The notes below the pieces were generated by a model. It was not told the DNA's origin and made no database searches. It worked only from the letters and a program-made list of their open reading frames with translations. The translations under genes were made by a program, and so were the position numbers. Below are positions 16,780 to 42,156 of a DNA stretch of 64,000 nucleotides, piece after piece. Origin of the DNA: Lysobacter panacisoli (GTDB lineage Bacteria; Pseudomonadota; Gammaproteobacteria; Xanthomonadales; Xanthomonadaceae); the NCBI RefSeq assembly GCF_009765165.1, contig NZ_VLNU01000001.1, positions 3,602,247 to 3,666,246 of the forward strand, given 5' to 3'. Numbering within the stretch: the stretch's first letter is position 1; every line of letters begins with the position of its first letter.

Positions 16780-17784
16780 TCAGCGCTGGATCAGCGAGCG
16801 CAGGCGGGCCTCGACGTCCGCCGTCAGCGGTCCCAGCACCCCGCGGCGATCGGCCGGGAGATGCGCCGCCGGATCGGCGTCGTCGAACACATAGTGGTCC
16901 AGCAGGGTCCGCCAGGCCTCGCGCTCGGCCCGGGGCAGCGAGCGGAACGCCAGCAGGCAATGCATCAGTGCGTCGAGGCCGGGTTCGGGCACATGGCCGG
17001 GGAACGCCGGCGGACGCCACCAGTAATTGATCAGCGCGTTGAGGCGTTCGAGCGAGGCGACGTGGTGCCACCACACCGGTGGGATGTAGATCGCATCGCC
17101 CGGTTCCAGCTCGGCCACCTGCGCGTGCGCCAGCGCCTCGCCGAGGCGCGGGTAGCGCGGATCGTCGACGGCGTCGATCGGCGGCAGGCTGATAGCGGCG
17201 GCGGTCGGCGCGCGATCGAGCGGGCCGACATAGAGATTGCGGACCTGCTCCGGCGGCATCAGCGTGAACCGGCGCCGTCCGCACACGACCACGGCGAGGT
17301 TGTGCGAGGTGTCGAAATGCGCCGGCGTGGTCACGCGATTGCCGATCCACAGCCGCGGCTGCACATCGGCGTCGAGGAGCGGCATCGGATGCGCATCCAT
17401 CAACCCTGGCAGGCACTGTGCGACCAGCGCGCTCTGCATCGCCACGCCGCCCGCTTCGCCCTCCTCCTGCCGGCTGTACGCCGCGAGGCGCTCCAGCACC
17501 TGCGTCACGGTGACGCGGAAATGCCGGTAGTTGAAGCCGCTGAGGTCCGCGTTGTAACCGACCACGCCCAGCGCCTCGGGCGGCATCAGCAGCGCGTCGA
17601 CCGGGGTGGCGTTGTCGTGGTGCGCCAGTTCGCGGGCGAAGGCCGAATCGGAACCGCGCGCCAGCGCGACCATTGGCCAGTCGCGGCAGATGCCGCGCAA
17701 CACGCGCGGGCGCGCGCCGTCGATCAGCGCCTGCCGCGTGATCGGCCCATCGGCCGCACGGACTTCCTCGATGGCAATGGACAT
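16780..17784 (-). CDS. Cupin-like (JmjC/cupin_8) domain protein
   Basis: A 334-residue protein with the fold pattern of cupin_8/JmjC Fe(II)- and 2-oxoglutarate-dependent hydroxylases. The expected metal triad is visible as H156 and D158 in AHFDTSHN and a histidine at 240 or 241 in WWHHVASL, in front of NYWW. GDAIYIPPVWWHH is typical of the family. The substrate is unknown. It starts 75 bp after the stop of the sugar ABC ATPase on the same strand, so the two may share a transcript. In related bacteria such proteins often sit near TonB-dependent glycan-uptake genes; here the link is through the predicted regulon. An earlier in-frame codon at 17814 is less likely to be the start. Confidence 0.8.
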   Translation of the reverse strand: MSIAIEEVRAADGPITRQALIDGARPRVLRGICRDWPMVALARGSDSAFARELAHHDNATPVDALLMPPEALGVVGYNADLSGFNYRHFRVTVTQVLERLAAYSRQEEGEAGGVAMQSALVAQCLPGLMDAHPMPLLDADVQPRLWIGNRVTTPAHFDTSHNLAVVVCGRRRFTLMPPEQVRNLYVGPLDRAPTAAAISLPPIDAVDDPRYPRLGEALAHAQVAELEPGDAIYIPPVWWHHVASLERLNALINYWWRPPAFPGHVPEPGLDALMHCLLAFRSLPRAEREAWRTLLDHYVFDDADPAAHLPADRRGVLGPLTADVEARLRSLIQR

Positions 17785-17859
17785 GCGGCTCCGGTCCCGC
17801 TGGCGGCAGCCCATGCTAGCGAAACATGTTGGCGAAAGCGGCGCGCGCGTCGCGCGAGG

Positions 17860-18957
17860 TCACCCCACCCGCTGTCCGGTTTCCGGATCGAAGCAGTGCA
17901 GGTGTTCGTCATGGTGGTCCAGGTGCACGATCTGGCCGACCTCCGGAAGGCCGCGCGGCGACAGGCGCACGACCAGCTCCGAACCGGCGCAGTCGAGATG
18001 GAGGAAGGCTTCGTTGCCGACCGGCTCGACGGTTTCCACGCGTGCGCTCAGGCGTCCCGCACCGGGTGCGGTCAGGAACAGGTCCTCCGGGCGCAGGCCG
18101 ATCGTGAGGCGATGCCCGGCGAACGCGCGCATCGCCGATACCAGTGCGGCATCCGGATGCAGCGCCAGCTCCAGCCCATCGGCGACGCGCAGGCGCAGGC
18201 CATCGCCATCGGCGACGACGTCGCCCTGTAGCAGGTTCATGCGCGGACTGCCGAGGAAGGTCGCGACGAACAGGTTGGCCGGACGGTTGTACAGCGCCAT
18301 CGGCGTGTCGATCTGCTGGATGCGGCCTTTATCGAGCACGACGATGCGCTGGCCCAGCGTCATCGCCTCGACCTGGTCGTGGGTGACGTAGACCATCGTC
18401 GTGCCGAGCTGGCGATGCAGGCGCGCGATCTCCACGCGCGTGGTCGCTCGCAGCTTGGCGTCGAGGTTGGACAGCGGCTCGTCGAGCAGGAACACCTGCG
18501 GGTTGCGCACCAGCGCCCGCCCGAGCGCGACGCGCTGGCGCTGTCCGCCCGACAGCGCGGCCGGCTTGCGATCCAGCAACGATTCCAGTTCGAGCATCGC
18601 TGCCGATTCGCGCACGCGACGGGCGATCTCGGCCTTGTCGGTGCCGCGCAGCTTCAGGCCGAAGCCGAGGTTATCCGCGACCGTCATGTGCGGATACAGC
18701 GCGTAGCTCTGGAACACCATCGCGATGTCGCGGTCCTTCGGCGCGACGTCGTTGACGCGACGCTCGCCGATGCGCAGTTCGCCGGAGGTGATGGTCTCCA
18801 GTCCCGCGATCATGCGCAGCAGCGTCGACTTGCCGCAGCCGGACGGCCCGACCAGGACCAGCAGCTCGCCATCGCCGATCTCGAACGTCGCATCGTCCAC
18901 GCCGACGTAGCCGTTGGGATAGACCTTGCGCAGACGGTCCAGCGTGACTTTCGCCAT
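17860..18957 (-). CDS. Sugar ABC transporter ATP-binding protein (MalK/UgpC/MsmX type)
   Basis: A 365-residue ATPase with Walker A GPSGCGKS (37-44), Q-loop Gln83, signature LSGGQ (135-139), Walker B VFLLDE (ending Glu160) and a C-terminal regulatory TOBE-like domain (from about 240, with IGLRPEDL). This class energises carbohydrate importers of the MalFGK2 type, and single copies often serve several transporters. No permease or binding-protein gene is adjacent; the only sugar permeases in the window (33236-34938) lack their own ATPase, so this is the likely partner. It diverges from the GH1 gene across a region carrying a LacI-type operator. The start at 18957 begins MAKVTLDRLRKVYPNG. Confidence 0.93.
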   Translation of the reverse strand: MAKVTLDRLRKVYPNGYVGVDDATFEIGDGELLVLVGPSGCGKSTLLRMIAGLETITSGELRIGERRVNDVAPKDRDIAMVFQSYALYPHMTVADNLGFGLKLRGTDKAEIARRVRESAAMLELESLLDRKPAALSGGQRQRVALGRALVRNPQVFLLDEPLSNLDAKLRATTRVEIARLHRQLGTTMVYVTHDQVEAMTLGQRIVVLDKGRIQQIDTPMALYNRPANLFVATFLGSPRMNLLQGDVVADGDGLRLRVADGLELALHPDAALVSAMRAFAGHRLTIGLRPEDLFLTAPGAGRLSARVETVEPVGNEAFLHLDCAGSELVVRLSPRGLPEVGQIVHLDHHDEHLHCFDPETGQRVG

Positions 18958-19055
18958 GAATTCTCCGGCCCCTGACGACGGCATGGCCGACGTGATGCAG
19001 GTCGGCGTTTGGATTGTCGGCGATGCATTTGCCGCCGTCCTCGGCTATCCTGCCA

Positions 19056-19069
19056 TGTAACCGTTTTCA
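19056..19069. promoter_or_regulatory. Predicted LacI-family operator between the ABC ATPase and GH1 genes
   Basis: The 14-mer TGTAACCGTTTTCA matches the perfect palindrome found upstream of lacI (TGTAAACGTTTACA) at 12 of 14 positions. It lies 56 bases before the GH1 start and about 100 bases before the divergent ATPase start. A -10-like TATCCT sits at 19046-19051, so a bound repressor would cover the start of GH1 transcription. Confidence 0.55.
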
Positions 19070-20737: not shown

Positions 20738-21724
20738 TTGAGCGTTTCCGTTCTTCCGGCCACCTCCCTGCTCGCCGACATCGGCGGCACCAATGCCCGC
20801 TTTGCCCTGGCCCGCCAGGATCCGGTCGAGCCCCTGCTGATGGAAAGCGTGCGCGAGTTCGCCGTCGCCGACTTTCCTTCGCTGTCCGATGCGGCACGCC
20901 ATTACCTCGACACCACCGGTGCCACTGCGCAGAACGGCGTGTTCGCGGTGGCAGGTCGCGTGGACGGCGACGAGGCGCGCATCACCAATCATCCGTGGGT
21001 GATCTCGGCCACGCGCACCTGCCAAGCCCTGGGGCTGGACTCGGTTCGACTGGTCAACGACTTCGCCGCGCAGGCGATGGGCGCTTCGCTGCTGCAGCCC
21101 AAGGACGTGGTGCCGGTCGGCGGCGTCGGCTGGAACGGCCACGATGGCCAGGACCGCACTTTCGCGATCATCGGCGCCGGCACCGGGCTGGGCGTGGGCG
21201 GACTGCTGCGTCGCGATGGCCGCCATTACGCGTTGCAGACCGAGGGCGGCCACGTCGGCTTCGCGCCGAACTCACCGGAGGAAATCGAGATCCTCCAGCG
21301 CATGTCCGGCGAGTTCGGCCGCGTCTCCAACGAACGCCTCGTCAGCGGCCAGGGTCTGGTCAACGTGCACCGTGCGCTCAGCGCGATCGCGGGCGAGGAT
21401 CCGGGACCGCTCAAGCCCTCCGACATCACCGCGCGCGCGAAGGAAGGCGACGAACGCGCACTGCGCACTGTCGACGTGTTCTGCGCCGTCTTCGGTGCCG
21501 CCGCGGGCGACCTCGTCCTGACCCTGGGCGCGTGGGACGGCGTTTTCCTCGCGGGCGGACTCGTACCCAAGCTGCTGCCGCAGATCGCGCACTCGGCGTT
21601 CCGCCAGCGCTTCGAATACAAGGGCCGGTTCTCGCCGACGATGGCGCGCATCCCGACGCTGGCGGTGGTCCATCCGCAGCCGGGCCTGCTGGGCGCGGCC
21701 GCGCTGGCGCAGACCGGAGCGTAG
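20738..21724 (+). CDS. glk: Glucokinase
   Basis: A 328-residue ROK-independent glucokinase (Glk family, PF02685). It phosphorylates glucose with ATP to glucose 6-phosphate in the cytoplasm. The phosphate-binding motif is ADIGGTNARFAL (from residue 13), the catalytic base is Asp108 in LVNDFAAQ, and EGGHVGFAP follows. The start codon appears to be TTG, preceded by GGTGA at a good distance; no ATG occurs before residue 35, which would be too late for the fold. pgl follows after 41 bp, so the two probably form one unit feeding the Entner-Doudoroff and pentose phosphate routes. Confidence 0.93.
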   Translation: MSVSVLPATSLLADIGGTNARFALARQDPVEPLLMESVREFAVADFPSLSDAARHYLDTTGATAQNGVFAVAGRVDGDEARITNHPWVISATRTCQALGLDSVRLVNDFAAQAMGASLLQPKDVVPVGGVGWNGHDGQDRTFAIIGAGTGLGVGGLLRRDGRHYALQTEGGHVGFAPNSPEEIEILQRMSGEFGRVSNERLVSGQGLVNVHRALSAIAGEDPGPLKPSDITARAKEGDERALRTVDVFCAVFGAAAGDLVLTLGAWDGVFLAGGLVPKLLPQIAHSAFRQRFEYKGRFSPTMARIPTLAVVHPQPGLLGAAALAQTGA

Positions 21725-21765: not shown

Positions 21766-22515
21766 ATGGTCGACGCTGGCTCGCCCGCTTCCGCCCGCAC
21801 CAACATGCCGGTCGCCCGGCATGTCCTGCACGTGCACCCGAACCGCGAGGTCTGGACCTGGGCCGCGGCGGTGTCGATCGCCGCCGATCTGCGTCGTGAC
21901 TTGACCCTGCAACCGCGCGCGCGCCTGCTGCTGTCCGGCGGCACCACGCCGGGACCGGTCTACCACGCGCTCTCGCAGGCGCCGCTGGACTGGGAACGCG
22001 TCGACGTGGGCCTGGTCGACGAACGCTGGCTGCTCCCCGACGACCCCGAAAGCAACGCCTGGCTGGTTCGCCACGAGCTGCTGCAGGACCATGCCGCGCC
22101 CGCGCATTTCGAACCGATGACCCAGGCCGGCCGCAACATCGAGGGCGCGGTCGCAACGGCCAACGCGCATGCGCGACGCGAAGCGACCGTCGCGGTGTTC
22201 GGCATGGGCGACGATGGCCATACCGCCTCGCTGTTCCCGGCGATGAACGATTTCGAGCGCGTGATGAAGAGCCAGCGCGATTACGTCGCCATAGATGCGA
22301 GCGGCTGTCCCGGCGCGCGCGAATGGCCGCGTCGCATCAGCCTCACGCCGCACGGCATCGCGCGCATCCCGCACCGGCTGCTGCTATTGCATGGCGAACG
22401 CAAGCGCGCGGTGTTCGAACAGGCGCTGGTATCGGGCGACCTTGAGCGCTGGCCGGTGCTGACCACGCTCGACAGCGACCACGGCACGCCGCTGCACGTG
22501 CACTGGTACGAGTGA
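21766..22515 (+). CDS. pgl: 6-phosphogluconolactonase
   Basis: A 249-residue protein of the DevB/Pgl family. It hydrolyses 6-phosphogluconolactone to 6-phosphogluconate. Motifs are LLSGGTTPGPVY (from about residue 55), DERW (85-88) and GMGDDGHTASLFP (146-158). The ATG at 21766 has GAGG nine bases upstream. It is downstream of glk; zwf, edd and eda are not in the window. Confidence 0.92.
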   Translation: MVDAGSPASARTNMPVARHVLHVHPNREVWTWAAAVSIAADLRRDLTLQPRARLLLSGGTTPGPVYHALSQAPLDWERVDVGLVDERWLLPDDPESNAWLVRHELLQDHAAPAHFEPMTQAGRNIEGAVATANAHARREATVAVFGMGDDGHTASLFPAMNDFERVMKSQRDYVAIDASGCPGAREWPRRISLTPHGIARIPHRLLLLHGERKRAVFEQALVSGDLERWPVLTTLDSDHGTPLHVHWYE

Positions 22516-30098: not shown

Positions 30099-33000
30099 TC
30101 AACGCGGCGGCAAGGCGACTTCCACCTTCGACGGCGCCTTGCGCAGTCGCAGCTCGCCGTTCTCCCACTGCGCCGGACGACCGTCCACGCGTGTCACGCC
30201 CGGTGCGTGCTCGTACGGCCAGGCCAGCACGACGCCACCGGCCGGAACGCGCAGGCCCTTCGCCAGTGTGAAGACCAGCGTCCGGTTCGTTTCCTTGAGC
30301 GTGTAACCCAGCGGCCCGTTCGGCGTGCGCAGGCCCGAGACCTCGACGCCCTGCCCCGCGAGCCAGTCGGAGGGAATGCCCGCGGCCACGACCAGCGCAT
30401 CGTCGATGTCGCGCGTATACGCGAACAGGTCGAGCGCCGACCGCACGTAATCCGAACCGACCCACGCGTGCGGCAGGTCGCCGACGAAGAACGGTTTGCG
30501 TGGCGTGCGCGAAACGACTTCGGCCCACTGGTTCCAGCTGCGCGGCTGCTGGTCGGCGAAGAAGAACGCCAGGGACTCGTGCGCGCGCTCGCGCCAGCCC
30601 AGGCGGACGAACGTACCGATGGTGCGCAGTTCGTAAGGCGTGTAGTCCTTCCACTCGCGCGTGCCGTCGCGGCGCGCCACGAACTCGCGCCAGTAGCGTT
30701 CGAAGGTGTTGTCGAGCAGGTCCTGCGGCAACCGCCCCTGCTCGCCGCCGGGTGCGAGCGCGATGGTCGTGGACGTCGCGTCGAAATCGCCCAGCTCGGC
30801 CGCGCCGGGCAGGAAATCGATGTCGTGTTGCTGAGTGGCCGAACGCAGCGATGCGTACAGATCGTCGCGGAACTGGTCGCGCGACGCGGCAAAGCGGCGC
30901 GCATCCTCGTCGCGACCGAGCCACTGCGCGATCTCCACCGCATCCTTGTAACCACGCAGCGCCCAGAAGTTGTCCCAGTACGAATGCATCGGCTTGGCCG
31001 AATAGCCTTCGTGGCTGATCGAGGCCGGCATCATTCCGTAGAACGCCGGATTTCGTGCGCGATTGGCTTCGGTGCGCTCGCTCACTCGCAGCTGGTCCAT
31101 GTACGCCACCGCGCCGACGACATGCGGCCACATCACTTCCAGCAGCGCACGGTCCTGCGTGTAGCGGTAGACCTCGGCGACGGTGAAGACCAGCTCACCG
31201 TGGCTGTCGTTCTCCGGGACCGGATCGCTGCCGCGATCGTCCACGCAGCACGGCACTTTTCCGTTCTCGAACTGGTACGGCGCGTACCAGCGCAGGAATT
31301 CTTCGGCCACGTCCTCGCGGCCCATGCGCAGCAGGCCTTCGCCGATCATCGCGCCGTCGCGGATCCACGCGCGCGAATACGAACGCGTGCCCGGCTGCAG
31401 GCGCGGACCGATGCGGCTGATCAGCATGTGCGCCAGCGCCGTTCGCAGCGTGTCGACGACGTGCTGCCCCTGCGCGGGCACGCGCAGGCGCACGCGGTCG
31501 AGCTTGTCGCGCCATTGCGAGGCGACGGCGCGCTGCATCGCTTCTGCGTCGCCGGGCGCGAACCCCGTCGGCATCGCACCGGTCATCGGCGCGATCCAGT
31601 CGAGCTCGAACGACTCACCCGAACCCAGCCGAACCGGGTAGTCGAGCGCGCCACTGGCCAGCCCAGTCGGATCGTCAACCGATGCGACCTGCTGCGACGG
31701 TTGTGCGTCGCCCTCACCATCGAACGTCGTGGCGAACCACGCGCCGGCGTTGCGCGACATCGAAACGCGCGCGCGGCCGTCCACGTCGATGCGCTCGCCA
31801 TCCACGCGCAGCGTATGGATCGGACTGACGCCACCGACCGTGTTGAGGAACTGCGTCGGCGGATTCACCTGCAGCGGACGTACTTTCAGGCGCAACACGT
31901 AATCGCGGGCCTGCGACGTCGGGTTGCTCAGGCGATAGCGACCGACCAGCTGCGACTGCGCCTGCGTGCCCTGTGCGAAACCGGTGATGTCGAGGTGGAG
32001 GTCGGCGTGTTCCCAGTGCACGGTCGGTACCGGTAGATAACCGTTCTGCAGCGACTGGGTGATGCGCGCGTCGGCCCATGTGGTCGCGCGACCGGACGCG
32101 ATCACCACCGGCTCCACGCTGAAGGCGCCCTTGCCCAGCTCGATCGCACCGTCCTCGCCGATCAGGCCCTGCTCGGTGCCGCCGTCGATGCCGAGGATGG
32201 TCCAGTACGGCTGCTCGCCGCTGAAACCGCGCGGATACGTGCCTCGCGGTGCCGCCGCCGCGACCGAGCGCACGAAATCGTTCGGCGTCGCCGCGAACGC
32301 GAGCGGTCGTACTTGCAGGCTCGCCAGTCCGATGCGTCCACCCGGCGCACGCAGCGGTGTCAGTCGCAGGTAACGCGCTTCCGATTCGGGCAGCGCGATG
32401 AAATCGGTGCCGCCATCCGCGCCAGCGACGTCGCGCACGACGCGCCAGTGCTCGCGATCATCGGAGAGTTCGATGCGGTAATCGCGTGCGTGCTCACCCG
32501 GCAACCATTGCAGGACCACGCCACCGAACTCGCGCGGCTTGCGCAGGTCGAGCACGAACTGTGGCGGCGCGACTGGATCGACTGGCGCGCGCCACGCCGT
32601 GCTGGCGGAATCGTCGAGTGCATCGCGCGCAGGGCCGCTGCGGTCCTGCGACGTCGCCGTGGCCTCGCCGATCAGCGGCGAATCGTCCTGCGGCGGCAAT
32701 GCGCGGAACGTCAGCTCGTCGAAGCACACCGAGCCCTTTCCGCCGGCGCTGTTGTAGATCGTGAATTCGATCTTGCGGCTGTGTCGTAGGGTCGGGTCCG
32801 GCGCCGGACCCCAGGCACGGCTGATGTGACGTTGCTTGTAGACGACCTGCGTCCACTCGCGCGGGAATTCGTAACGCGGACGGTTGACCCACCACACGTT
32901 GTCGCCGCTGTCGTCGACCAGCTTGAACTGCAGATCGTTCGCCGGCGAATCGCCGCGCAGGCGGAACGAGAACGCATAGTTGCCGGGATAGTCGATGGGC

Positions 33001-33239
33001 AGCTCGCGCTGCAGGCCGGCGTAGCCCGAGACACCGTGGAAGTCGTAGTCCAGGCACACGGCCTTGCCGCTCACGCCGGCCACGCTGCGCAGGCTTCCGC
33101 CCACCTGGTCGGACGTGACGACCTGCCACGGCGTGCTCGACTCGAATCCGTCCAGCACTCGCGCCGATCCGCCCTTCTGTGCCAATGCCGGCATCGCCAG
33201 CAATGCCAGCAGCACCGCACCGCCCTTCCGCACGCTCAC
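30099..33239 (-). CDS. F5/8 type C-containing six-hairpin glycosidase-like protein
   Basis: A 1046-residue secreted protein. It has a signal peptide (MSVRKGGAVLLALLAMPALA), an N-terminal beta-sandwich (about 25-170, with VWWVNRPRYEFP and ISRAWGPAPDP), an F5/8 type C (discoidin, CBM32-like) domain (about 180-320, ending YLRLTPLRAPGGRIGLASLQV), a linker domain, and a C-terminal alpha/alpha barrel (about 640-950) with RAWIRDGAMIGEGLLRM. That barrel resembles amylo-1,6-glucosidase/GH63-type catalytic domains. I cannot assign a CAZy family. The GTG start overlaps the permease stop as GTGA, so it is the last gene of the transporter operon. Confidence 0.8.
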   Translation of the reverse strand: MSVRKGGAVLLALLAMPALAQKGGSARVLDGFESSTPWQVVTSDQVGGSLRSVAGVSGKAVCLDYDFHGVSGYAGLQRELPIDYPGNYAFSFRLRGDSPANDLQFKLVDDSGDNVWWVNRPRYEFPREWTQVVYKQRHISRAWGPAPDPTLRHSRKIEFTIYNSAGGKGSVCFDELTFRALPPQDDSPLIGEATATSQDRSGPARDALDDSASTAWRAPVDPVAPPQFVLDLRKPREFGGVVLQWLPGEHARDYRIELSDDREHWRVVRDVAGADGGTDFIALPESEARYLRLTPLRAPGGRIGLASLQVRPLAFAATPNDFVRSVAAAAPRGTYPRGFSGEQPYWTILGIDGGTEQGLIGEDGAIELGKGAFSVEPVVIASGRATTWADARITQSLQNGYLPVPTVHWEHADLHLDITGFAQGTQAQSQLVGRYRLSNPTSQARDYVLRLKVRPLQVNPPTQFLNTVGGVSPIHTLRVDGERIDVDGRARVSMSRNAGAWFATTFDGEGDAQPSQQVASVDDPTGLASGALDYPVRLGSGESFELDWIAPMTGAMPTGFAPGDAEAMQRAVASQWRDKLDRVRLRVPAQGQHVVDTLRTALAHMLISRIGPRLQPGTRSYSRAWIRDGAMIGEGLLRMGREDVAEEFLRWYAPYQFENGKVPCCVDDRGSDPVPENDSHGELVFTVAEVYRYTQDRALLEVMWPHVVGAVAYMDQLRVSERTEANRARNPAFYGMMPASISHEGYSAKPMHSYWDNFWALRGYKDAVEIAQWLGRDEDARRFAASRDQFRDDLYASLRSATQQHDIDFLPGAAELGDFDATSTTIALAPGGEQGRLPQDLLDNTFERYWREFVARRDGTREWKDYTPYELRTIGTFVRLGWRERAHESLAFFFADQQPRSWNQWAEVVSRTPRKPFFVGDLPHAWVGSDYVRSALDLFAYTRDIDDALVVAAGIPSDWLAGQGVEVSGLRTPNGPLGYTLKETNRTLVFTLAKGLRVPAGGVVLAWPYEHAPGVTRVDGRPAQWENGELRLRKAPSKVEVALPPR

Positions 33240-34057
33240 CCCTTCACGCTCCCGACCAGCAGGCCCTGCAGGTAGTAGCGCTGCAGCACCAGGAACAGGA
33301 CCAGCACCGGAAGCACCGTCACCACCGAGCCCGCCATCATCAGTTCGTTGTCCTGCACGTGTTCGCGCGAGAGCGACGCCAGCGCGACCGGCAGGGTGAA
33401 ATGACTGCTGTCGCTGAGGATGATCAGCGGCCACATGAAGTCGTTCCACGCGCCGAGGAAGACGAAGATCGCCAGCGTCACCAGGATCGGCTTGAGCACC
33501 GGTAGCACGATCTGGAAGAAGATGCGCAGCTCGCCGGCGCCGTCGATGCGCGCCGCTTCCAGCAGTTCGTCCGGAATGGAGCGCGCGTACTGTCGCACCA
33601 GGAAGATGCCGAACACGCTCGCCATCAGCGGCACGACCGCACCGGCATAGCTGTTGACCAGCCCGATCTGCTTGAGCATCAGGAACAGCGGCATCATCGT
33701 CACCTGCGCGGGAATGATCAGCGCCCCGAGCAGCAGCTGGAAGATGCGCTCGCGACCGGCAAATCGCAGCTTGGCGAAGGCGTAGCCGGCCATCGTGTTG
33801 AGCAGCAGCGCGACCAGGGTGGCGGCGCTGGCGATCAGGAAACTGTTGAGCAGGTAGCGGCCCATGCCGGCGCGCGCGAACAGCTCGTGGTAGTTGTGCA
33901 GCGTCGGCGCCTTCGGCCACAGTGGCGGCGGGAAGGCGCTCGCCTCACCGGCCTGCATGAACGACACCGACAGCATCCACAGCAGCGGCGTCAGGCTGAT
34001 CACCGCCAGCGCGATCATCAGACCGTTGACGATGGCCCGGGCCAGGCGCGGGTTCAC
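33236..34057 (-). CDS. Sugar ABC transporter permease (MalG-like)
   Basis: A 273-residue inner-membrane protein with about six membrane segments. The EAA loop that contacts the ATPase is seen as EAARIDGAGELRIFFQIVLP. The GTG start overlaps the stop of the MalF-like gene as GTGA, and its own stop overlaps the start of the next gene in the same way, so translation is probably coupled. It pairs with the upstream permease to form the channel. No ATPase gene is linked; the MalK-type protein at 17860 is the candidate. Confidence 0.92.
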   Translation of the reverse strand: MNPRLARAIVNGLMIALAVISLTPLLWMLSVSFMQAGEASAFPPPLWPKAPTLHNYHELFARAGMGRYLLNSFLIASAATLVALLLNTMAGYAFAKLRFAGRERIFQLLLGALIIPAQVTMMPLFLMLKQIGLVNSYAGAVVPLMASVFGIFLVRQYARSIPDELLEAARIDGAGELRIFFQIVLPVLKPILVTLAIFVFLGAWNDFMWPLIILSDSSHFTLPVALASLSREHVQDNELMMAGSVVTVLPVLVLFLVLQRYYLQGLLVGSVKG

Positions 34058-34938
34058 GATTCGGCTCCCTTGCGCCGTGCGAACCACATCAGCCCGCTGG
34101 TCACGGTCACCATCAGCACGAACAGCAGGAACGCGACCGCCGAGGCGTTGCCGAGGTTCCACCACATGAAACCCTGTTCGTACATCAGGTACAACACACT
34201 CACGGTGCTCTGCATCGGCCCGCCGCGGGTCATCACGTAGGGTTCGGCGAACAGCTGGAAATAGCCCGACAGCGTGATGATGCTGACCAGCAGCAGCACC
34301 GGCCCGAGTTGCGGCAGCGTGATGTGCCGGAACTGCTGCGTGCGGCTGGCGCCGTCGATGCGCGCGGCTTCGTACAGGTCTTCCGGGATCGACTGCAGGC
34401 CAGCGAGGAAGATGATCATGTTGTAGCCGAAGTTCTTCCACACGGCGAACAGGATGATCGTCGGCATCGCCCACGTCGGATCCCCGAGCCAGTCGATGGG
34501 GTCGATACCGAACCACGAAAGGCCCCAGTTCACCAGCCCGTAGCGCGTGTGGAACAGGTAGCGCCAGATCACCGCCACCGCGACCACGGTGGTGACCACC
34601 GGCGCGAAGTACGCGGTGCGGAAGAACGGCTTGAACGAGCCGAGCTTCGAATGCAGCAACAACGCCGCGCCCAGCGACACCGCGATCGACAGCGGCACGC
34701 CGACCACGACGAAGTACATCGTGTTGCCCAGCGCCTGCCAGAACAGCGCGTTCTGCAGCAGCGCGGCGTAGTTGCCCAGCCCGACGAAGCGCAGGTTGCC
34801 CATGTCGGCCAGCGCGTAGATGTCGAAGTCGGTGAGGCTCAGCGCGAAGGCGGCCAGCACCGGCAGACCGAAGAACACGCCGATCACGGTCAGTGCGGGC
34901 GCGGCAAACATCCAGCCGGCAGTCGACGCGCGGATCAT
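34054..34938 (-). CDS. Sugar ABC transporter permease (MalF/UgpA-like)
   Basis: A 294-residue membrane protein with six predicted segments starting at AGWMFAAPALTVIGVFFGLPVLAAF. The EAA motif is EAARIDGASRTQQFRHITLPQL, and RGGPMQST follows, a pattern common in oligosaccharide importers. It begins at ATGA, overlapping the stop of the binding protein. Together with the MalG-like protein it imports a sugar from the periplasm. Confidence 0.92.
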   Translation of the reverse strand: MIRASTAGWMFAAPALTVIGVFFGLPVLAAFALSLTDFDIYALADMGNLRFVGLGNYAALLQNALFWQALGNTMYFVVVGVPLSIAVSLGAALLLHSKLGSFKPFFRTAYFAPVVTTVVAVAVIWRYLFHTRYGLVNWGLSWFGIDPIDWLGDPTWAMPTIILFAVWKNFGYNMIIFLAGLQSIPEDLYEAARIDGASRTQQFRHITLPQLGPVLLLVSIITLSGYFQLFAEPYVMTRGGPMQSTVSVLYLMYEQGFMWWNLGNASAVAFLLFVLMVTVTSGLMWFARRKGAES

Positions 34939-36233
34939 GGCGCGGCTCCGATCGTCCGGTGGTCGAGCATCCAGCGGCGTTTCTCGAGGATGGCGTCGGT
35001 GCGGCGGTCGAGCTCTTCGGCGGCACCGTCTACGTCGTAGCGTCCGCCGATCATCTCCTCGCCGACGATGCGGATCTCCTGCGCGATGCGCTCCCATTCC
35101 GGCACCTTCGGTGCGGCACGGGCGCGTTCCAGCTGCTCGCGGAACGCGCGCGCATACGGGTCGCGCGTGAGCGCGGGGCTGGTCCACGCACTTCGACGTG
35201 GCGGCAGGTCGCCGGTCAGCGCATGGAACTGTGTCTGCACCTGCGGCTCGGACAGGTAGGCAATGAGCTTCCACGCCGCGTCCTTGCGCTGCGAGGAACG
35301 GAAGATCACGAAGCTGGTGCCGCCCATCACCGATGCTCCCGGACCATCCGGACCGGGCAGCGGCATCGTCATCCACGAGCCAGCCACGCTCTGCGGCAGG
35401 CGCTTGCGGAACTCGGCGATATTCCAGGGACCGCTGACGTAGAAGCTGAAATAGCCGCGACCGAACTCATCCCAGACATTGGATATCTGGTTATTGCTCA
35501 CCGGCGGCGCCCAGCGCTGGTCGAACATCTCCTTGTAGAACGCCAGCGCCCGACGGAATCCCGCGCTGCGAAAATTGCCATAACGCCCGTCGTCGCGCAG
35601 CAGCGGATCGGGCTGCTGGATCGCCAGGTTCAACAGTGGCTCGAACTCGTTGAGCGGCAGAAGGATTGCGTAGCGGTCCGCGCCCGCGCGTTGCTTGACC
35701 GCGGCGAGTGCCGCGCGCCATTCATCCCAGTTGCGCGGCGGCGCGGCGATGCCGGCTTCGCGCAGCAGATCGGTGCGGTAGAACGGCACCCGGGTCTCGG
35801 CGTACCACGGCACCGCGTACACGCTGCCCTGCAGCTCACCGGATTCCCATGCACCGTGGAAGTAATCGCCCGGTTCCACCGACGGTGTGGCCGCCAGGTA
35901 GGGATCGAGCGGCGTCAACGCGCCGAGCAGCGCGAATTCCGGGATCCACGTGTTGCCGAGCGAGCACACGTCCGGCAGCGCATCGCCCGCGAACGCGGTC
36001 AGCAGCTTTTCGTGCGCGGCGGTCCACGGTAGCTGCTGCACGTCGACGCGGACGTCGGGATGGCGCCGTTCGAACTCCGGGATCAGCCGGCGCACGATCT
36101 CGCCTTCGCTGCCCATCGCCCAGAAGCGCACGACCTGGCGATCGTCCTGTTCGCGCGCGCACGATGAAAGCAGCAGCAGCGACAGAAGCGCCGCTGCGAC
36201 AAGCCCCCATCGCCGTGTGCGCGTCGCCCGCAT
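34935..36233 (-). CDS. Sugar-binding lipoprotein of the ABC transporter
   Basis: A 432-residue family 1 extracellular solute-binding protein (MalE class). The signal ends LLLLSSC (Cys25), so it is tethered to the inner membrane in the periplasm. Sequences such as GDALPDVCSLGNTWIPEFALLGALTPLDPYL and FYVSGPWNIAEFRKRLP are typical of oligosaccharide-binding proteins. It lies 16 bp after the GH144-like gene and overlaps the permease start. A GTG at 36242 is an alternative start. The ligand is inferred only from context. Confidence 0.9.
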   Translation of the reverse strand: MRATRTRRWGLVAAALLSLLLLSSCAREQDDRQVVRFWAMGSEGEIVRRLIPEFERRHPDVRVDVQQLPWTAAHEKLLTAFAGDALPDVCSLGNTWIPEFALLGALTPLDPYLAATPSVEPGDYFHGAWESGELQGSVYAVPWYAETRVPFYRTDLLREAGIAAPPRNWDEWRAALAAVKQRAGADRYAILLPLNEFEPLLNLAIQQPDPLLRDDGRYGNFRSAGFRRALAFYKEMFDQRWAPPVSNNQISNVWDEFGRGYFSFYVSGPWNIAEFRKRLPQSVAGSWMTMPLPGPDGPGASVMGGTSFVIFRSSQRKDAAWKLIAYLSEPQVQTQFHALTGDLPPRRSAWTSPALTRDPYARAFREQLERARAAPKVPEWERIAQEIRIVGEEMIGGRYDVDGAAEELDRRTDAILEKRRWMLDHRTIGAAP

Positions 36234-36249
36234 GCCGGTCACCCTACCC

Positions 36250-37890
36250 TCATTTCGACTTCTGCGGCGTCTCGGGCGTGGGCTTCGGCGACTGCGACGC
36301 ACGTGTGGCGCGCGATTCCGCCTCGCCCAGCGCGCGTGCGGTGGCGGCGTCCTTCTCGGATTGCGTCTGCGGCTTGGGCTGCGTCGCCGGCTCTTCGCCT
36401 TCCTTTACCGGCTCCAGCCATCCGCCCTTGAAGCCGGCCTTCTGCAGGCCGTCGCGGATGTACTTGTTCTTCTTCATCACGTTCCAGACGAAGTCGTTCC
36501 GGTAATTGCTGATCATCGCCAGGATCGGCCCCTGGTCGATGCCGATGTAATCGCTGGCGACCCAGCCTTCGCCCGGCACGAGGCGCCCGGTCTTGAGCGG
36601 GATGTCGTAGGTGAAGCTGGGATTGAACGAATCGAGGAATCCGTAGCTGGAGTACAGGAACTCGCCATAGCGTTCGTGCAACGCCACGGTGCTGGGGATG
36701 ACGATCTCCGGCGCGAACGGCAGCGAAGCGATCGCCGCGGTCGGCGCGATGGTGCCGTCGTCGAAGGTGTCGCGCAGGCCGGCACCGCGCGCGGAGTAGT
36801 GGCGGAACTGGCGCTGTTCGCCGCGATATTCCTGCAGCGTCTGCTGCGGACCATCGCTCGCGGTCAGGCCCCATACTTCGGGACCGTAGTCTTCCCACTT
36901 CATCGGATTGGCGATGGCGTAGGCACGCTGCGCGTAGGCCGCGCGACGGCTGTTCTCGAAGTAATCGATACCGCGCTCGCGCATGTAGTCGTCCTGGATT
37001 CCGCGGAAATCGATCCAGACGTGGCTGTACTGATGGCCGAACAGCGGGCCGAACGCGAGGTATTCCTCGCCCTGGTACACGCCCCAGACATCGTTGTAGG
37101 TACGCGTCCACACCGACCATGCCGCCGGCTCGACCGGATGGGTCGGCGAAGCCATCGCCAGCACGTACAGCAGCATGGCTTCGTTGTAACCGGTCCAGTC
37201 GTGCTGGATGAAGCCGCTCTCGGGGAACCAGCCCATCGAGATCAGCGGCTTGTTGCGCTGCAGCCACGTCCAGTCGACGCGCTTGTAGAGTTCATCGGCG
37301 AGGTCGCGGATCTGCTTCTCGCGCGGATCGTCGCGGTCGTAGTAACTCTGGGCGAACAGCACGCCCATCATCAGCAGGGCCGTGTCCACGCTCGAGAGCT
37401 CCACCCAGCTCTGGTAGCGATGACCCGTGTCCATGTCGAGGAAGTGGTAGTAGAAGCCGTTGTACGCGCCCTTCTCCGTGGCCTGCGGGCCGGACGGAAT
37501 ATCGCGGAAGAACTTCAGCGTGGTCAGCGTGCGGTCCACCGCCTGACGGCGGCTGACCCAGCCGTTCTCGATGCCGATCGGATACGCGGTCAGCGCGAAT
37601 CCCACCGAGGCGATGCTCGCGAACGGGCGCGACGGGAAACGGTCGGGCGTGAGACCGTTGATCTCGCTGGTCGTGTCCCAGAAGAACTGGAACGTGCGCT
37701 TCTCGATGTCGCGGAACAGCGGCGGCAGCTCGAGCTTGGTCGCCTTCAGCGGTTCCACCTGCACCGGCGGCGCCGAGGCGATCGGATACGTCGTCGAAGC
37801 CGGCTCGCTCTGCCGGCCGCAACCGGCCACGAACACGAGCACCGCCATCAGCGATGCAGCCCCCCAACTGCGTCGGAACGAATCGAACAT
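36250..37890 (-). CDS. GH144-like (glycoamylase fold) lipoprotein, probable beta-1,2-glucanase
   Basis: A 546-residue lipoprotein (VFVAGC, Cys24) of the Glycoamylase family PF10091, which contains GH144 endo- and exo-beta-1,2-glucanases. The alpha/alpha barrel covers about residues 55-480. Recognisable stretches are RTFQFFWDTTSEINGLTPDR, ELSSVDTALLMMGVL and GYNEAMLLYVLAMASPTHPV. The C-terminal 50 residues are Gln/Thr/Pro-rich and probably disordered. It should cut imported glucan in the periplasm. PF10091 also includes proteins of other specificity, so beta-1,2-glucan is an inference. The start is the ATG at 37890, although two in-frame GTGs precede it. Confidence 0.82.
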   Translation of the reverse strand: MFDSFRRSWGAASLMAVLVFVAGCGRQSEPASTTYPIASAPPVQVEPLKATKLELPPLFRDIEKRTFQFFWDTTSEINGLTPDRFPSRPFASIASVGFALTAYPIGIENGWVSRRQAVDRTLTTLKFFRDIPSGPQATEKGAYNGFYYHFLDMDTGHRYQSWVELSSVDTALLMMGVLFAQSYYDRDDPREKQIRDLADELYKRVDWTWLQRNKPLISMGWFPESGFIQHDWTGYNEAMLLYVLAMASPTHPVEPAAWSVWTRTYNDVWGVYQGEEYLAFGPLFGHQYSHVWIDFRGIQDDYMRERGIDYFENSRRAAYAQRAYAIANPMKWEDYGPEVWGLTASDGPQQTLQEYRGEQRQFRHYSARGAGLRDTFDDGTIAPTAAIASLPFAPEIVIPSTVALHERYGEFLYSSYGFLDSFNPSFTYDIPLKTGRLVPGEGWVASDYIGIDQGPILAMISNYRNDFVWNVMKKNKYIRDGLQKAGFKGGWLEPVKEGEEPATQPKPQTQSEKDAATARALGEAESRATRASQSPKPTPETPQKSK

Positions 37891-37934
37891 CACCACGCCA
37901 CACCATCATCGAGTGAAGGAACATGCCCGAAGGC

Positions 37935-37970
37935 GCCGCCGGCCGCCACGACGAGTAGACGGCCGGCGGC
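37935..37970 (-). terminator. Strong stem-loop between receptor gene and GH144-like gene
   Basis: GCCGCCGGCCG (37935-37945) pairs perfectly with CGGCCGGCGGC (37960-37970) over 11 bp with a 14-base loop. It lies 6 bases after the receptor stop on the transcribed strand, with no U-run. It could end or partly end transcription, or protect the receptor mRNA, and so set a higher receptor level than that of the downstream enzymes. Confidence 0.5.
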
Positions 37971-37975
37971 CCGGG

Positions 37976-40900
37976 TCACCAGGAAATACCGAAGGACAGC
38001 TTGAACGAACGCGTCGGCAGAGTGATCTCGTCGGTGTGGTCGCCGTACACCGGGTTGATCACGCCGTCCACGCCACGGAAGTTCTGGAAGCCGGTCCAGT
38101 TGCGCGCATTCGTCACGTTGAACACGTCGCCGCGCACCATGTACTTAAGGCCCGCGCCGGTGTCGAATTCCTTCTGCACCGCCAGGTCCCACTGGAAGAA
38201 ATCGGCGTCGTCGAAGAAAGCCGAATCGATGCGACCGAAAGCGCAGTTGTCGAGCGCCGGGTCGGGCGTCGGCGCGAGGCAGTCGGTGATGTCGCGCGCG
38301 ATCGGGCTGCTCCACGTGACCTTGGTCGAGAACGTGAAGCCCCAGCGCTGGTAGATGCCCGTACCGACGAAGCGGTGCTTCGGAACACCGACCGAGGCGA
38401 CCCACGGATGGTCGTCCAGGTTGGGATAGTCGAAGACGTAGTGCTCGTCGGTGTTGGCGGCGTTGGCGCGGTTCTCTTCGCCATCCGAATAGGTATACGC
38501 CAGCGTCACGCCCCACGGCGATTCCGCGGTGAGCGGCTTTTCCGCCCACAGCAACAGCTGGTTGAGCTTGGTCTCCACACCGTTGTCGGCCTTGATCAGC
38601 GAACCGAAGCCCGGGATCGTCTCGCCGAACGGAGCGCCGCCGAAAGTGCGACCCGGCCCGTAGAAGGTACCGTCGTCGTAGCGATTGCCCAGCGTGAAGA
38701 TGATGCCGTCGTGGCTCTCGATGCGGACCAACGTCACCGACGTGTTCCAGTCCACGCTGCCCAGCTTCACGGCATTGCGCATGCCCAGGCTGAACTGGTC
38801 GGAGTACGGAACCTTGAGGTCGTTGTTCATCAGGTTCACTTCCGAACCGAGGTCCGGATTGGCCGCGACCATCGCGTACAGCTCCTGCAGGTTCAGGAAT
38901 CGCGGATCCCACTCGAAGCACGTGGTGTTGTTGACCGTGCAGGGATTGCCCGGCGTGTTGAAGAACCGCGTGTAGGTCGGGAAGGTGCTCTTGGACTGTT
39001 CGAGCGCGAGGTAATCGAACAGGTTGCGGTCGTAGGCACGGCCGGCGCCGCCGAAGAACACATGGCGCTGGTCGGCGAACAGGTCGTACGAGAAGCCCAG
39101 GCGCGGCTGCCATGCATCCTTGAACGCATCGCGGTTGTTGCCGGTGCTGATGTAATCCTCGATGTCGTAGCCGACACCCGGCTGATGGATGTTGCTCCAG
39201 CCGCGCAGCGCGGCGACCAGGTCGGGCGGCGTGACGTAATCCTCGTAGCTCGGCGTGCTCTCGTAGTCGTAACGCAGGCCGAGGTTGACGATCAGCTTGT
39301 CGTTGACCTGCCAGTCGTCCTGGAAGTAGATGCCGTACTGCTTGTTCTTCGAGGCGATGTTGCGGTCGCCCACGCCCGGCAGCGGCGCACCGAAGCGCAC
39401 CTGGTAAGGCTGGAACGTCGACAGCGACGTGTTGCCCATCAGCACGACGTTGGCGGGATAGTTGATCGAATACTGCGCGTTGAACGGCTGCTGTTCGAAC
39501 GCGTTGATCTCCACGTCCTTGTACTTGAAGCCGGCCTTGAGCGTGTGGCCTTCGATGCCGGTGTAGGTCAGATCGTCCTGGAAGCCCCAGCCCTTCTGGC
39601 CCTTGTCCTGGTAGTCCTGGCCACCGCCGACGTTGAGCACGCCGCCGCGTTGGCTGTTCTGGATGATGAAGCCGGGCGCGAGGGTGATCGCACGGGGATT
39701 GAACTGCTCGTCCTCGTGCGTGATGTGCATGTCGTTCAACCAGTCGGTGTTGCTCCACTGGTAGCGCAGGTCCAGGCGCGTGCTGTCGTTCTTGTTGGTC
39801 TTGCCGTAGCTGTCGGTGTTCTGGCCGCCGAGATCGGTGATCTCTTCTTCCTCGCGTACCTTCGCGCTGAATTCGACCAGGTTGTTGTCGTTGACCTGCC
39901 AGGTCAGCTTGCCGAACCACAGGTCTTCGTTGAAGGGTTCGGTGGTCGGACCGGTCAGCGCCAGCAGTTCAGGAGTGAGAGTGAAGCCTGGATCGAGCGA
40001 TCCCGGCGCGATGGTGTCGGGCGTCTCGAACTCCTTCGCTTCGTACGTTACGAAGAAGAACAGGCGGTCCTGGATGATCGGGCCACCGAACGATGCGCCG
40101 TACTGGGTCTCGCCCGAAGGGCTCTTGCCCTGCCCGGCGCGTTCTTCGGCCGGAGTCTGTTCGCGCCACTCGGGAATGTTGGCCTTGTCCCAGAAGAACT
40201 GGCCCTGGAACTCATTGGTGCCGGACTTGGTCACCGCGGTGACGGCCGCGCTGCTGATCTGGTCGTACTCGGCCTTGTAGTTGGACGTGATGACCTTGTA
40301 CTCGCCGATCGCGAGCTGCGGGAACGGATTGCCCTTGCTCTGGTCCTGGCCGCTGATGCCGCCTTTGAGCACGTAGTTCTTCTGGCCGACGCCGTCGATG
40401 AAGACGTTCACGCCGTTGGAACTCTGCGCGCCGCTACGCAGCTGCGAAGTGCCGTTGGACTTACGGTCGAAAATCATGCCGGGCACGATGTCGGCGAAGG
40501 CGAGGAAGTTGCGCGAGGACTGCGGCAGCGATTCGATCTGCACCTGCGAAACGTAGGTTGCCACTTCCGGCGTGGTGGTCTCGAACACCGGCGCGGCGGT
40601 GACCGTGACGGTATCGACCGTGGTGGCCGGACCCGACGGCGCGGTTTCGGCGACGCCGCCGGCGGACAGGTTCAGCGTCGCGGTCTGGCCGACCTGCACG
40701 ACGATCGTGCGCGAAGCGGTCTGGCCATTGACGTTCGCGTCGATCCGGTAGGTGCCCGGCGGCAGGCCGCCGATGTTGTACGAGCCGTTGCTGGCCTGGA
40801 CGCGACGGGTCAGCCCGGTAGCGGTGTTGGTGGCGGTGACTTCGGCCTGCGCGGCCGGCGCGGAATCGACGGTGATCTGGCCGCGGACGGTCGCGGCGGT

Positions 40901-41005
40901 GCTTTGCGCGAACGCCGACGGTGCGGCCATCGCAAGACAGCTGGCCAGTGCGCAAGCCAGCAGGCGGGGGGCCGGCCTGCGGGGGGATCTGGACTGCGAC
41001 TTCAT
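37976..41005 (-). CDS. TonB-dependent outer-membrane receptor with N-terminal carboxypeptidase-like domain
   Basis: A 1009-residue receptor. It has a signal peptide (cut after SAFA, residue 33), a carboxypeptidase-regulatory-like domain (about 38-115, with GLPPGTYRIDANVNG), a plug domain (about 135-260, including NVFIDGVGQKNYVLKGG) and a C-terminal beta-barrel. Such receptors import oligosaccharides or act as sensors in Xanthomonadaceae. The last residue is tryptophan (SFGISW) instead of the more usual phenylalanine. AGAGGAA precedes the ATG. A LacI-type operator lies 34 bases upstream. It begins the glycan-uptake series. Confidence 0.92.
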   Translation of the reverse strand: MKSQSRSPRRPAPRLLACALASCLAMAAPSAFAQSTAATVRGQITVDSAPAAQAEVTATNTATGLTRRVQASNGSYNIGGLPPGTYRIDANVNGQTASRTIVVQVGQTATLNLSAGGVAETAPSGPATTVDTVTVTAAPVFETTTPEVATYVSQVQIESLPQSSRNFLAFADIVPGMIFDRKSNGTSQLRSGAQSSNGVNVFIDGVGQKNYVLKGGISGQDQSKGNPFPQLAIGEYKVITSNYKAEYDQISSAAVTAVTKSGTNEFQGQFFWDKANIPEWREQTPAEERAGQGKSPSGETQYGASFGGPIIQDRLFFFVTYEAKEFETPDTIAPGSLDPGFTLTPELLALTGPTTEPFNEDLWFGKLTWQVNDNNLVEFSAKVREEEEITDLGGQNTDSYGKTNKNDSTRLDLRYQWSNTDWLNDMHITHEDEQFNPRAITLAPGFIIQNSQRGGVLNVGGGQDYQDKGQKGWGFQDDLTYTGIEGHTLKAGFKYKDVEINAFEQQPFNAQYSINYPANVVLMGNTSLSTFQPYQVRFGAPLPGVGDRNIASKNKQYGIYFQDDWQVNDKLIVNLGLRYDYESTPSYEDYVTPPDLVAALRGWSNIHQPGVGYDIEDYISTGNNRDAFKDAWQPRLGFSYDLFADQRHVFFGGAGRAYDRNLFDYLALEQSKSTFPTYTRFFNTPGNPCTVNNTTCFEWDPRFLNLQELYAMVAANPDLGSEVNLMNNDLKVPYSDQFSLGMRNAVKLGSVDWNTSVTLVRIESHDGIIFTLGNRYDDGTFYGPGRTFGGAPFGETIPGFGSLIKADNGVETKLNQLLLWAEKPLTAESPWGVTLAYTYSDGEENRANAANTDEHYVFDYPNLDDHPWVASVGVPKHRFVGTGIYQRWGFTFSTKVTWSSPIARDITDCLAPTPDPALDNCAFGRIDSAFFDDADFFQWDLAVQKEFDTGAGLKYMVRGDVFNVTNARNWTGFQNFRGVDGVINPVYGDHTDEITLPTRSFKLSFGISW

Positions 41006-41038
41006 ATGCTTCCTCTCTCCAAAAGCATTCGAAATGTG

Positions 41039-41052
41039 TGGAATCGTTTACA
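41039..41052. promoter_or_regulatory. Predicted LacI-family operator upstream of the receptor gene
   Basis: TGGAATCGTTTACA matches the palindrome TGTAAACGTTTACA at 12 of 14 positions and lies 33 bases before the receptor start codon, between it and the lacI stop. Confidence 0.6.
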
Positions 41053-41094
41053 GCGAACAGCCACACGGGCACGTGATTGCCGCAGGGAACGGCG

Positions 41095-42108
41095 TCACGA
41101 AAGCGTGCGGGGCGGGATGCCGCTGGACTCGCGGACGATCAGCTCCGTGGCGATCACGGAGGTTTCGCTGGCCGCTTCTCCGGCGACCTGGGCGATGAGC
41201 AGGCGCGCGGCACGTGCGCCAAGTTCTGCGATGTTGACCCGCATCGTCGTGAGTGCGGGGTGTACGTAGCGCGCCAGCGGAATGTCGTCGAATCCCGCCA
41301 GTGCGATATCGCCGGGGATGGCGACGCCGGCCTGCGCGAACGCGAACAGGCAACCGAGCGCCATCATGTCGTTGGCCGCGAACACCGCGTCCGGGCGCGG
41401 CGAAGCGGCGAGCAGTTCGTGGCCGGCACGATGTCCGGAGGCTTCGTCGAAGTCGCCCTGCACCACCCATTCGTGCGAACCGGGCTGCAGTCGTGCGAGC
41501 GCGTCGCGATAGCCGCGCAGGCGCTCGTGCGCGTCGAAGTTGTCGCGCGGACCGGCGATGAAGGCGATGCGGCGATGGCCGCGCGCAACGAGGTGCTCGA
41601 CCATCGCCACCGCGCCACCGTAGTTGTCCACGCCGAGCACGGCAGTGCCGTCGAGCCCGGCCTGGCTGTTGATCAGCACCGTCGGCAGCGAAGGCTCAAG
41701 TTCCTCGCTCAGCAGCGCGGGGGCCGCGACGATCGGCGACATCACCAGCAGCCCGTCGACGCGCCCGCGCATCGCGCGCAGGGCCGCGCCCTGCTCTTCC
41801 GGATTGCCGTGGTAACTGGATACGAGCAGGTGCAGGCGGTGCGCCCGCGCGACCTGGTCGATGCCACGCATGAGTTCGGAGAAGAACTCGCCGTGCAGGT
41901 CGGGCAGGACCACGCCAAGGGTCTGGGTGCGGCGGCTGCTCAGGCTGCGCGCGGCGGCATGCGGCGTGTAGCGCAACTGCTGGGCGGCGGCGAACACGCG
42001 GGTGCGGACGTCTTCGGCGACGTTGCCGTGGCCATTGAGGGCCCGCGACACGGTGGCCACCGATACCTGGGCCACCCGTGCGACATCTTTGATGGTCACG
42101 TTCGCCAC
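41095..42108 (-). CDS. LacI/GalR-family transcriptional repressor
   Basis: A 337-residue regulator with an N-terminal helix-turn-helix (TIKDVARVAQVSVATVSRALNGHGNVAEDVRTRV, residues 5-38), a hinge helix (AARSLSSRRTQTLGVVLP) and a periplasmic-binding-protein-like sugar-sensing domain. Its start is GTG. A perfect palindromic operator lies 34 bases upstream of its own start, so it probably represses itself. Related sites precede the receptor and the GH1/ATPase pair. The inducer is likely a sugar derived from the imported glycan. Confidence 0.93.
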   Translation of the reverse strand: MANVTIKDVARVAQVSVATVSRALNGHGNVAEDVRTRVFAAAQQLRYTPHAAARSLSSRRTQTLGVVLPDLHGEFFSELMRGIDQVARAHRLHLLVSSYHGNPEEQGAALRAMRGRVDGLLVMSPIVAAPALLSEELEPSLPTVLINSQAGLDGTAVLGVDNYGGAVAMVEHLVARGHRRIAFIAGPRDNFDAHERLRGYRDALARLQPGSHEWVVQGDFDEASGHRAGHELLAASPRPDAVFAANDMMALGCLFAFAQAGVAIPGDIALAGFDDIPLARYVHPALTTMRVNIAELGARAARLLIAQVAGEAASETSVIATELIVRESSGIPPRTLS

Positions 42109-42142: not shown

Positions 42143-42156
42143 TGTAAACGTTTACA
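42143..42156. promoter_or_regulatory. Perfect palindromic operator upstream of lacI
   Basis: TGTAAACGTTTACA is an exact 14-bp palindrome with the central CG typical of LacI/GalR-family operators. It lies 34 bases before the lacI start. It is the best match among the three sites in this window and defines the motif used for the others. Confidence 0.75.

Follow-up and report, generated by a model that had tools for sequence, protein, structure and literature searches.

Known systems and the Lysobacter locus

Beta-1,2-glucans are periplasmic, symbiotic or pathogenic factors of many bacteria, and their consumption by Gram-negative organisms is known mainly enzyme by enzyme. The clusters described in Listeria innocua (Lin1839-1841) and Streptomyces griseus (SGR_2423-2427) share a Lin1841-type binding protein, an ABC (ATP-binding cassette) transporter and a beta-glucosidase, which belongs to GH3 in the former and to GH1 in the latter, where a gene of the GH193 beta-1,2-glucanase family is also present; both are Gram-positive systems and have no TonB receptor (PMC12369401). 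The GH144/IaSGT cluster of Ignavibacterium album, proposed to serve beta-1,2-glucan, combines GH144 with a TonB-dependent transporter, an ABC importer containing a Lin1841 homologue, and GH35 and GH94-type proteins (PMC8861115). In Xanthomonas, the CUT loci likewise group a TonB receptor, a degradative enzyme, an inner-membrane transporter and a regulator (PMC1790865). The present analysis concerns a window of 64,000 nucleotides from Lysobacter panacisoli (the whole stretch of DNA analysed, taken from a genome of 3.88 Mb in two contigs), in which a seven-gene locus and two genes located 10-12 kb away very probably constitute a LacI-controlled regulon for the use of beta-1,2-glucan.

The seven genes are all carried by the minus strand, from 42108 down to 30099, and encode in this order a LacI-family repressor, a TonB-dependent receptor, a GH144 lipoprotein, a binding lipoprotein, two permeases and a large barrel protein designated GHX. 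Lipoboxes and signal peptides of these proteins were judged by eye. An earlier note on the same DNA had listed this gene set with its single strand and its positions, and each of these features was found in place. The same note had called the locus complete, a description that has to be amended, the ATPase and the GH1 beta-glucosidase genes, which it had overlooked, being located apart at 17.9-20.5 kb of the window.

The Lysobacter locus conforms to the CUT-locus definition (Blanvillain 2007), and has an ABC importer where the studied Xanthomonas sucrose CUT locus has a major-facilitator permease (PMC1790865). It differs from the Listeria and S. griseus clusters by its endo-enzyme, which belongs to GH144, by a LacI regulon with distant ATPase and GH1 genes, and by the addition of GHX. 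The pairing of TonB uptake with a binding-protein importer, presented earlier as a new Gram-negative route for this glucan, turned out to have a precedent, since the series GH144, TonB-dependent transporter, ABC importer was proposed for Ignavibacterium album by Kobayashi 2022 (PMC8861115). In place of the GH35 and GH94-type proteins of that cluster, the Lysobacter system displays GH1, GHX and LacI control, with no GH94 phosphorylase above cut-off in the genome. No description of the regulon in Xanthomonads, of the ligand of 3UOR-type proteins or of the function of GHX was found in the open-access literature searched. As far as these searches show, three things are apparently new: the regulon itself, a probable ligand for proteins of the 3UOR type, and a barrel enzyme that is unclassified and GH15-like.

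Enzymes, importer and proposed pathway

One basis of the substrate assignment is the GH144 lipoprotein (36250..37896, minus strand; PF10091, E 1.2e-87), a predicted endo-beta-1,2-glucanase of the XcSGL type. Its top solved relative is 8xul, the structure of XcSGL (XCC2207), with 901 bits over residues 22-540 and 74% identity, and the clan residues E239, F286 and Y367 of XcSGL are kept at identical numbers (F286 by counting). In this comparison with a characterised structure the protein, the single PF10091 copy of the genome, groups with the GH144 enzyme and not with another clade, as had been assumed earlier. XcSGL was characterised in 2025 and hydrolyses beta-1,2-glucan; among the other polysaccharides of its activity table, CM-cellulose, barley beta-glucan, glucomannan, xyloglucan and lichenan carry the entry N.D. 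(PMC12102758).

The TonB-dependent receptor (37976..41005, minus strand) is recognized by PF13620 (CarboxypepD_reg), PF25183 and PF00593; Pfam returned barrel matches and no plug-domain match. The receptor XCC2208 of X. campestris, numbered next to XCC2207 (XcSGL), is likewise described as seemingly devoid of a canonical plug (PMC1790865). A gene resembling flavin-dependent tryptophan halogenases (PF04820) is present in 16 of 40 fetched loci (L028, L029, L034, L042 and 12 others), mostly between the receptor and GH144 genes, where the window offers no space for it.

The binding lipoprotein (34935..36233, minus strand; SBP_bac_1), of the Lin1841/Xac-MalE type, scores highest with 3uor, the 'MalE' of X. 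citri (560 bits, 58% identity), whose ligand is given as 'Unknown' (PMC7676653). Its closest solved relative with a known ligand is the sophoro-oligosaccharide binder Lin1841 of Listeria (5ysb, 226 bits), the next sugar binders reaching at most 119 bits. A sophoro-oligosaccharide is a probable ligand of the 3UOR-type protein, and the regulon suggests an assignment for the solved, unassigned X. citri 'MalE'. The two permeases, of MalF/UgpA type (about 34054..34938) and MalG/UgpE type (about 33236..34057), both on the minus strand, contain PF00528 (BPD_transp_1); their top NCBIfam matches are of UgpA and UgpE type respectively, under the equivalog cut-off.

No ATPase gene is found within the seven-gene locus itself. 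A UgpC search of the genome returned 35 matches, among which only one exceeds the 432-bit cut-off: the UgpC/MsmX-type ATPase encoded at 17860..18984 (minus strand, start possibly 18957; NF008653, 490 bits). Located about 11 kb from the locus and linked to it by the operator described below, it is the probable energy unit of the importer, so that all parts of a CUT1-type importer are present, namely a binding protein, two permeases and a UgpC/MalK ATPase. Divergent from ugpC is the sole GH1 gene of the genome (19126..20517, plus strand, start assigned by eye in a frame open from 19009; PF00232, E 2.1e-161), coding for a beta-glucosidase without signal peptide by eye. It is followed on the same strand by genes for a glucokinase (20738..21724; TIGR00749 above cut-off) and a 6-phosphogluconolactonase (21832..22515, start approximate; TIGR01198 above cut-off, PF01182). 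The absence of a GH94 phosphorylase above cut-off fits a hydrolytic GH1 route.

The pathway can be tentatively summarized as follows. The TonB receptor would carry beta-1,2-glucans or their fragments across the outer membrane, and the GH144 lipoprotein would cut them to short sophoro-oligosaccharides, as expected from the activity of XcSGL. Homology, conserved neighbourhood and a common operator suggest that these oligosaccharides are imported by the binding lipoprotein, the two permeases and the UgpC-type ATPase. The GH1 beta-glucosidase, taken as cytoplasmic, would split them to glucose, which the glucokinase and the adjoining 6-phosphogluconolactonase could then pass on. The least certain step is that of the exported GHX, which may remove a linkage or end group beyond the reach of GH144 and GH1, most plausibly an alpha-glucosidic one. 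The LacI-family repressor is expected to bind its operator sites at lacI, at the receptor operon and at ugpC/GH1, and to release them upon binding of an oligosaccharide or derivative. Beta-1,2-glucan, the substrate put forward in the earlier note, is well, if indirectly, supported by the conjunction of an XcSGL-like GH144, a Lin1841-like binding protein and a GH1 enzyme in one regulon.

The putative LacI operator and conservation of the proposed regulon

The lacI gene (41095..42108, minus strand) codes for a protein with PF00356 and PF13377 (Peripla_BP_3) domains and is immediately preceded by a perfect palindrome, TGTAAACGTTTACA, at 42143..42156. Copies with 2 mismatches are located upstream of the TonB receptor gene (41039..41052) and between ugpC and the GH1 gene (19056..19069). 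At most 3 mismatches being allowed, the window contains these 3 sites versus 0.19 expected, and none of 100 shuffles gave as many as 3. At no more than 2 mismatches, the whole genome contains 4 sites, 3 of which are in the window, and none for the reversed pattern.

The operator was then sought in 40 loci of relatives at up to 2 mismatches, counting the testable genes only and with the provision that a single site may serve both ugpC and GH1. An upstream site was found for 31 of the 32 testable lacI genes, for 13 of 15 ugpC genes, for all 6 testable GH1 genes (GH1 being held by 14 of the 40 loci) and for 9 of 40 GH144 genes. The binding-protein genes provided an internal control: none of the 40 has an upstream operator, even at up to 4 mismatches. 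In the 64 full-length named loci defined below, 123 sites were detected in 58 loci, versus 0-3 for 20 shuffled palindromes (18 distinct). The common operator ties the ugpC and GH1 region to the seven-gene locus as what appears, from these sequence patterns, to be one LacI regulon. Receptor, endo-glucanase, importer, ATPase and beta-glucosidase are thereby joined into a single testable regulon, occurring in several proteobacterial groups.

Conservation was evaluated in a sample of 299 genomes belonging to the order of the host, with thresholds of E <= 1e-40 for the binding protein and E <= 1e-20 for GH144. The GH144 protein is present in 124 genomes and the binding protein in 118, all of which also have GH144. 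The two genes are less than 400 bp apart in 116 of these 118, a distance computed from the best match per genome, second GH144 copies and contig numbers being dropped. A GHX orthologue accompanies the binding protein in each of the 87 genomes where it occurs; this count results from 89 after removal of G032 and G211, which carry only a paralogue of about 36% identity. With this degree of conservation, the locus is not a chance grouping.

A set of 80 loci with the binding protein was also retained from named genomes, 16 of them shorter than 21 kb. They span Lysobacter, Pseudoxanthomonas, Stenotrophomonas, Luteimonas, Xanthomonas, Thermomonas and Dokdonella, as well as Steroidobacter, Rubrivivax, Pelomonas, Hyphomonadaceae and others. 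Within the fetched stretch, GH144 is found in 78, GHX in 68, the receptor in 67 and LacI in 65 of the 80. The strongest sign of a single system comes from L138 (a proteobacterial metagenome-assembled genome), L139 (Hyphomonadaceae) and L142 (Pseudaquidulcibacter), where one 21-kb stretch holds the whole gene series in the order GH1, LacI, GH144, binding protein, MalF, MalG, GHX, UgpC. X. sacchari has the genes of the Lysobacter window in the order in which they stand there, with edd-pgl-glk-zwf inserted between the locus and ugpC. In this X. sacchari record (L062, 16956-21516), homology to the GHX region is spread over several frames with no coding sequence listed, and the GHX gene may have decayed. 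The locus L134, from a Parvularculaceae metagenome-assembled genome, displays the binding protein, permeases, GH1, UgpC and two operator sites with no GH144 or GHX match; another glucanase family may fill the GH144 role there.

A number of observations weigh against a dedicated beta-1,2-glucan regulon. The fourth genomic operator-like site (G000:C1:336776-336789, in L065) lies beside an unrelated frame, presumably DUF1254-like, and is probably due to chance. At up to 2 mismatches, the operator precedes the receptor gene in just 5 of 34 relatives; the receptor is moreover the least conserved part (34-66%), and no receptor match was obtained in L138, L139, L142, L154 and others. The binding protein is only 33% identical to Lin1841. 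Of the 80 named loci, no more than 37 show GH1 and 27 show UgpC inside the fetched stretch. Finally, three GH3 genes exist elsewhere in the genome, a short one with a frame of 365 aa and two others coding for 929-938 aa. The two longer proteins could also split the oligosaccharides, and GH1 is therefore not the sole possible beta-glucosidase.

The GHX barrel protein and alternative readings

GHX (30099..33233, minus strand) is a protein of 1044 aa composed of a signal-peptide-like start, a CBM11-like and a CBM32-like part, a beta-sandwich and an (alpha/alpha)6-barrel. Pfam recognizes PF00754 (F5/8, E 1.8e-17) and PF17389 (29 bits for a cut-off of 24.5), and the closest named relatives among the matches listed are from Lysobacter. 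The predicted fold of the catalytic half matches GH15-type structures over 524-541 residues at 10-13% identity. The best match is the dextran dextrinase 9ju0, and the glucodextranase 1ug9 and the glucoamylase 1lf6 were matched as well; all three are GH15 enzymes. Structures of the beta-acting families GH116 and GH94 trail the top match by 2-4 Z units, and an alpha linkage can thus not be deduced from the fold alone.

A sequence-profile search with the catalytic half gave no PDB match at E <= 10. Membership of GH15 was considered and rejected: PF00723 reached only E 0.02-0.2, in 4 of the 8 members scanned, and TIGR01577, with E values of 4.3e-5 to 8.9e-9 in all 8, stayed far under its cut-off. 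Since no GH15 family profile was matched above cut-off, GHX is called GH15-like only. The fold is common to GHX and 9ju0, 1ug9 and 1lf6, and the position of a candidate catalytic glutamate may be; the additional CBM-like modules, together with the low identity, set GHX apart. The GH15 'WE' glutamate aligns to E742 of GHX in a shallow profile alignment (E 0.0037, probability 8.9%) built from 13 sequences, 7 of which were kept by hhalign and one of which (L192) looks like a wrong frame. E742 is invariant in the GHX alignment, and the adjoining loop 743-749 has a pLDDT below 50. Of the 8 GHX members scanned for the GH78 domain PF17389 (Bac_rhamnosid6H), 1 exceeds the cut-off, 5 fall short of it and 2 have no listed match. 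Precomputed annotation assigns the domain to about half of the 120 nearest relatives of GHX and, for the L036 protein, which is more distant, to 1 of 120 relatives. Given this uneven support among relatives, the possible reading of GHX as a plain GH78 rhamnosidase was not retained.

A paralogue of GHX (about 30-37% identity, ~1040 aa; L068-L079) is mostly found alone elsewhere in the genomes. It was not retained as a part of the system, 11 of the 12 regions surrounding it being devoid of a GH144 or binding-protein match. The paralogue adjoins the beta-1,2-glucan locus in L028, L073, L100, L112, L124 and L159.

A tentative proposal, which we hold to be rather less than probable, is that GHX, a conserved enzyme without assigned family, founds a new GH family beside GH15 and acts on alpha-1,6-cyclised beta-1,2-glucans, where it would cut the one alpha-1,6 joint or else alpha-glucosyl ends. 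The GH186 enzyme XccOpgD makes an alpha-1,6-cyclised beta-1,2-glucohexadecaose (PMC11228985), and the open-access literature searched yielded no enzyme that opens the alpha-1,6 joint. If the proposal is true, GHX is the missing degradative partner of XccOpgD and opens the cyclic glucan made by GH186 enzymes, allowing GH144 and GH1 to finish it. A tie between GHX and a self-made GH186 glucan was examined and rejected, as outside the family of the host GHX is present in 29 of the 58 locus-bearing genomes and GH186 in 3 (two of these with GHX). Within that family, G032 and G211 are the only genomes in which the locus is found without a GHX orthologue, and GH186 is missing from both (they belong to one genus and may represent a single event); in four genomes GHX occurs without GH186.

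The alternative surviving best concerns whose glucan is consumed. The regulon might recover the osmoregulated, probably alpha-1,6-cyclised, beta-1,2-glucan of the bacterium itself, a somewhat doubtful sub-case that is compatible with beta-1,2-glucan use in general. A single GH186 (OpgG/D) gene, nearest to XccOpgD, is present in the genome, and in the family of the host GH186 is found in 54 of the 60 genomes that carry the locus and in none of the 19 sampled genomes that lack it, a pattern that is confounded by shared ancestry. Outside the family, however, GH186 is restricted to the 3 of 58 locus-bearing genomes mentioned above, which makes the locus independent of a self-made GH186-type glucan. 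The cyclisation residues of XccOpgD were inspected in 22 GH186 sequences, namely the own protein and those of 20 regions chosen so as to be widely spread, one region contributing two. All three are kept in 11 sequences, 10 others (the own one included) have Y76 without the full set, and 1 has none. W76, D343 and R477 of XccOpgD correspond to Y, S and H in the GH186 of L. panacisoli, which thus lacks D343 and R477; the authors of the XccOpgD study read the Y76 pattern without these two residues as possibly transglycosylating and not making the 16-mer (PMC11228985). In addition, a periplasmic polymer needs no outer-membrane TonB receptor. Scavenging is the simpler reading, with recycling as a possibility.

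It is unlikely that the system mainly serves another beta-glucan or a glycoside, such as branched glucans or plant sophorosides, with beta-1,2-glucan as only one substrate among several. The CBM11-like and CBM32-like parts of GHX and the varied organisms carrying the locus would agree with such a breadth, but the activity profile of XcSGL given above and the presence of GH144 in nearly all named loci argue for beta-1,2-glucan. Very improbable is a maltodextrin or trehalose system in which the binding protein acts as the MalE for which its X. citri relative was named: 3uor has been labelled a putative maltose/trehalose binder (PMC7676653), the permeases are of MalFG/UgpAE type and the fold of GHX is GH15-like, but the ligand of 3uor is not assigned there, Lin1841 scores above every maltose-type protein listed, nothing was found pointing to a maltodextrin preference of the binding protein, and the regulon partners are GH144 and a GH1 beta-glucosidase, so that this reading was rejected on the Lin1841 ranking and on these partners.

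Returning to the LacI regulon for beta-1,2-glucan use, the neighbourhood of its distant part includes a Cupin_8/JmjC-like protein encoded at 16780-17814 of the window, which adjoins ugpC on the same strand.

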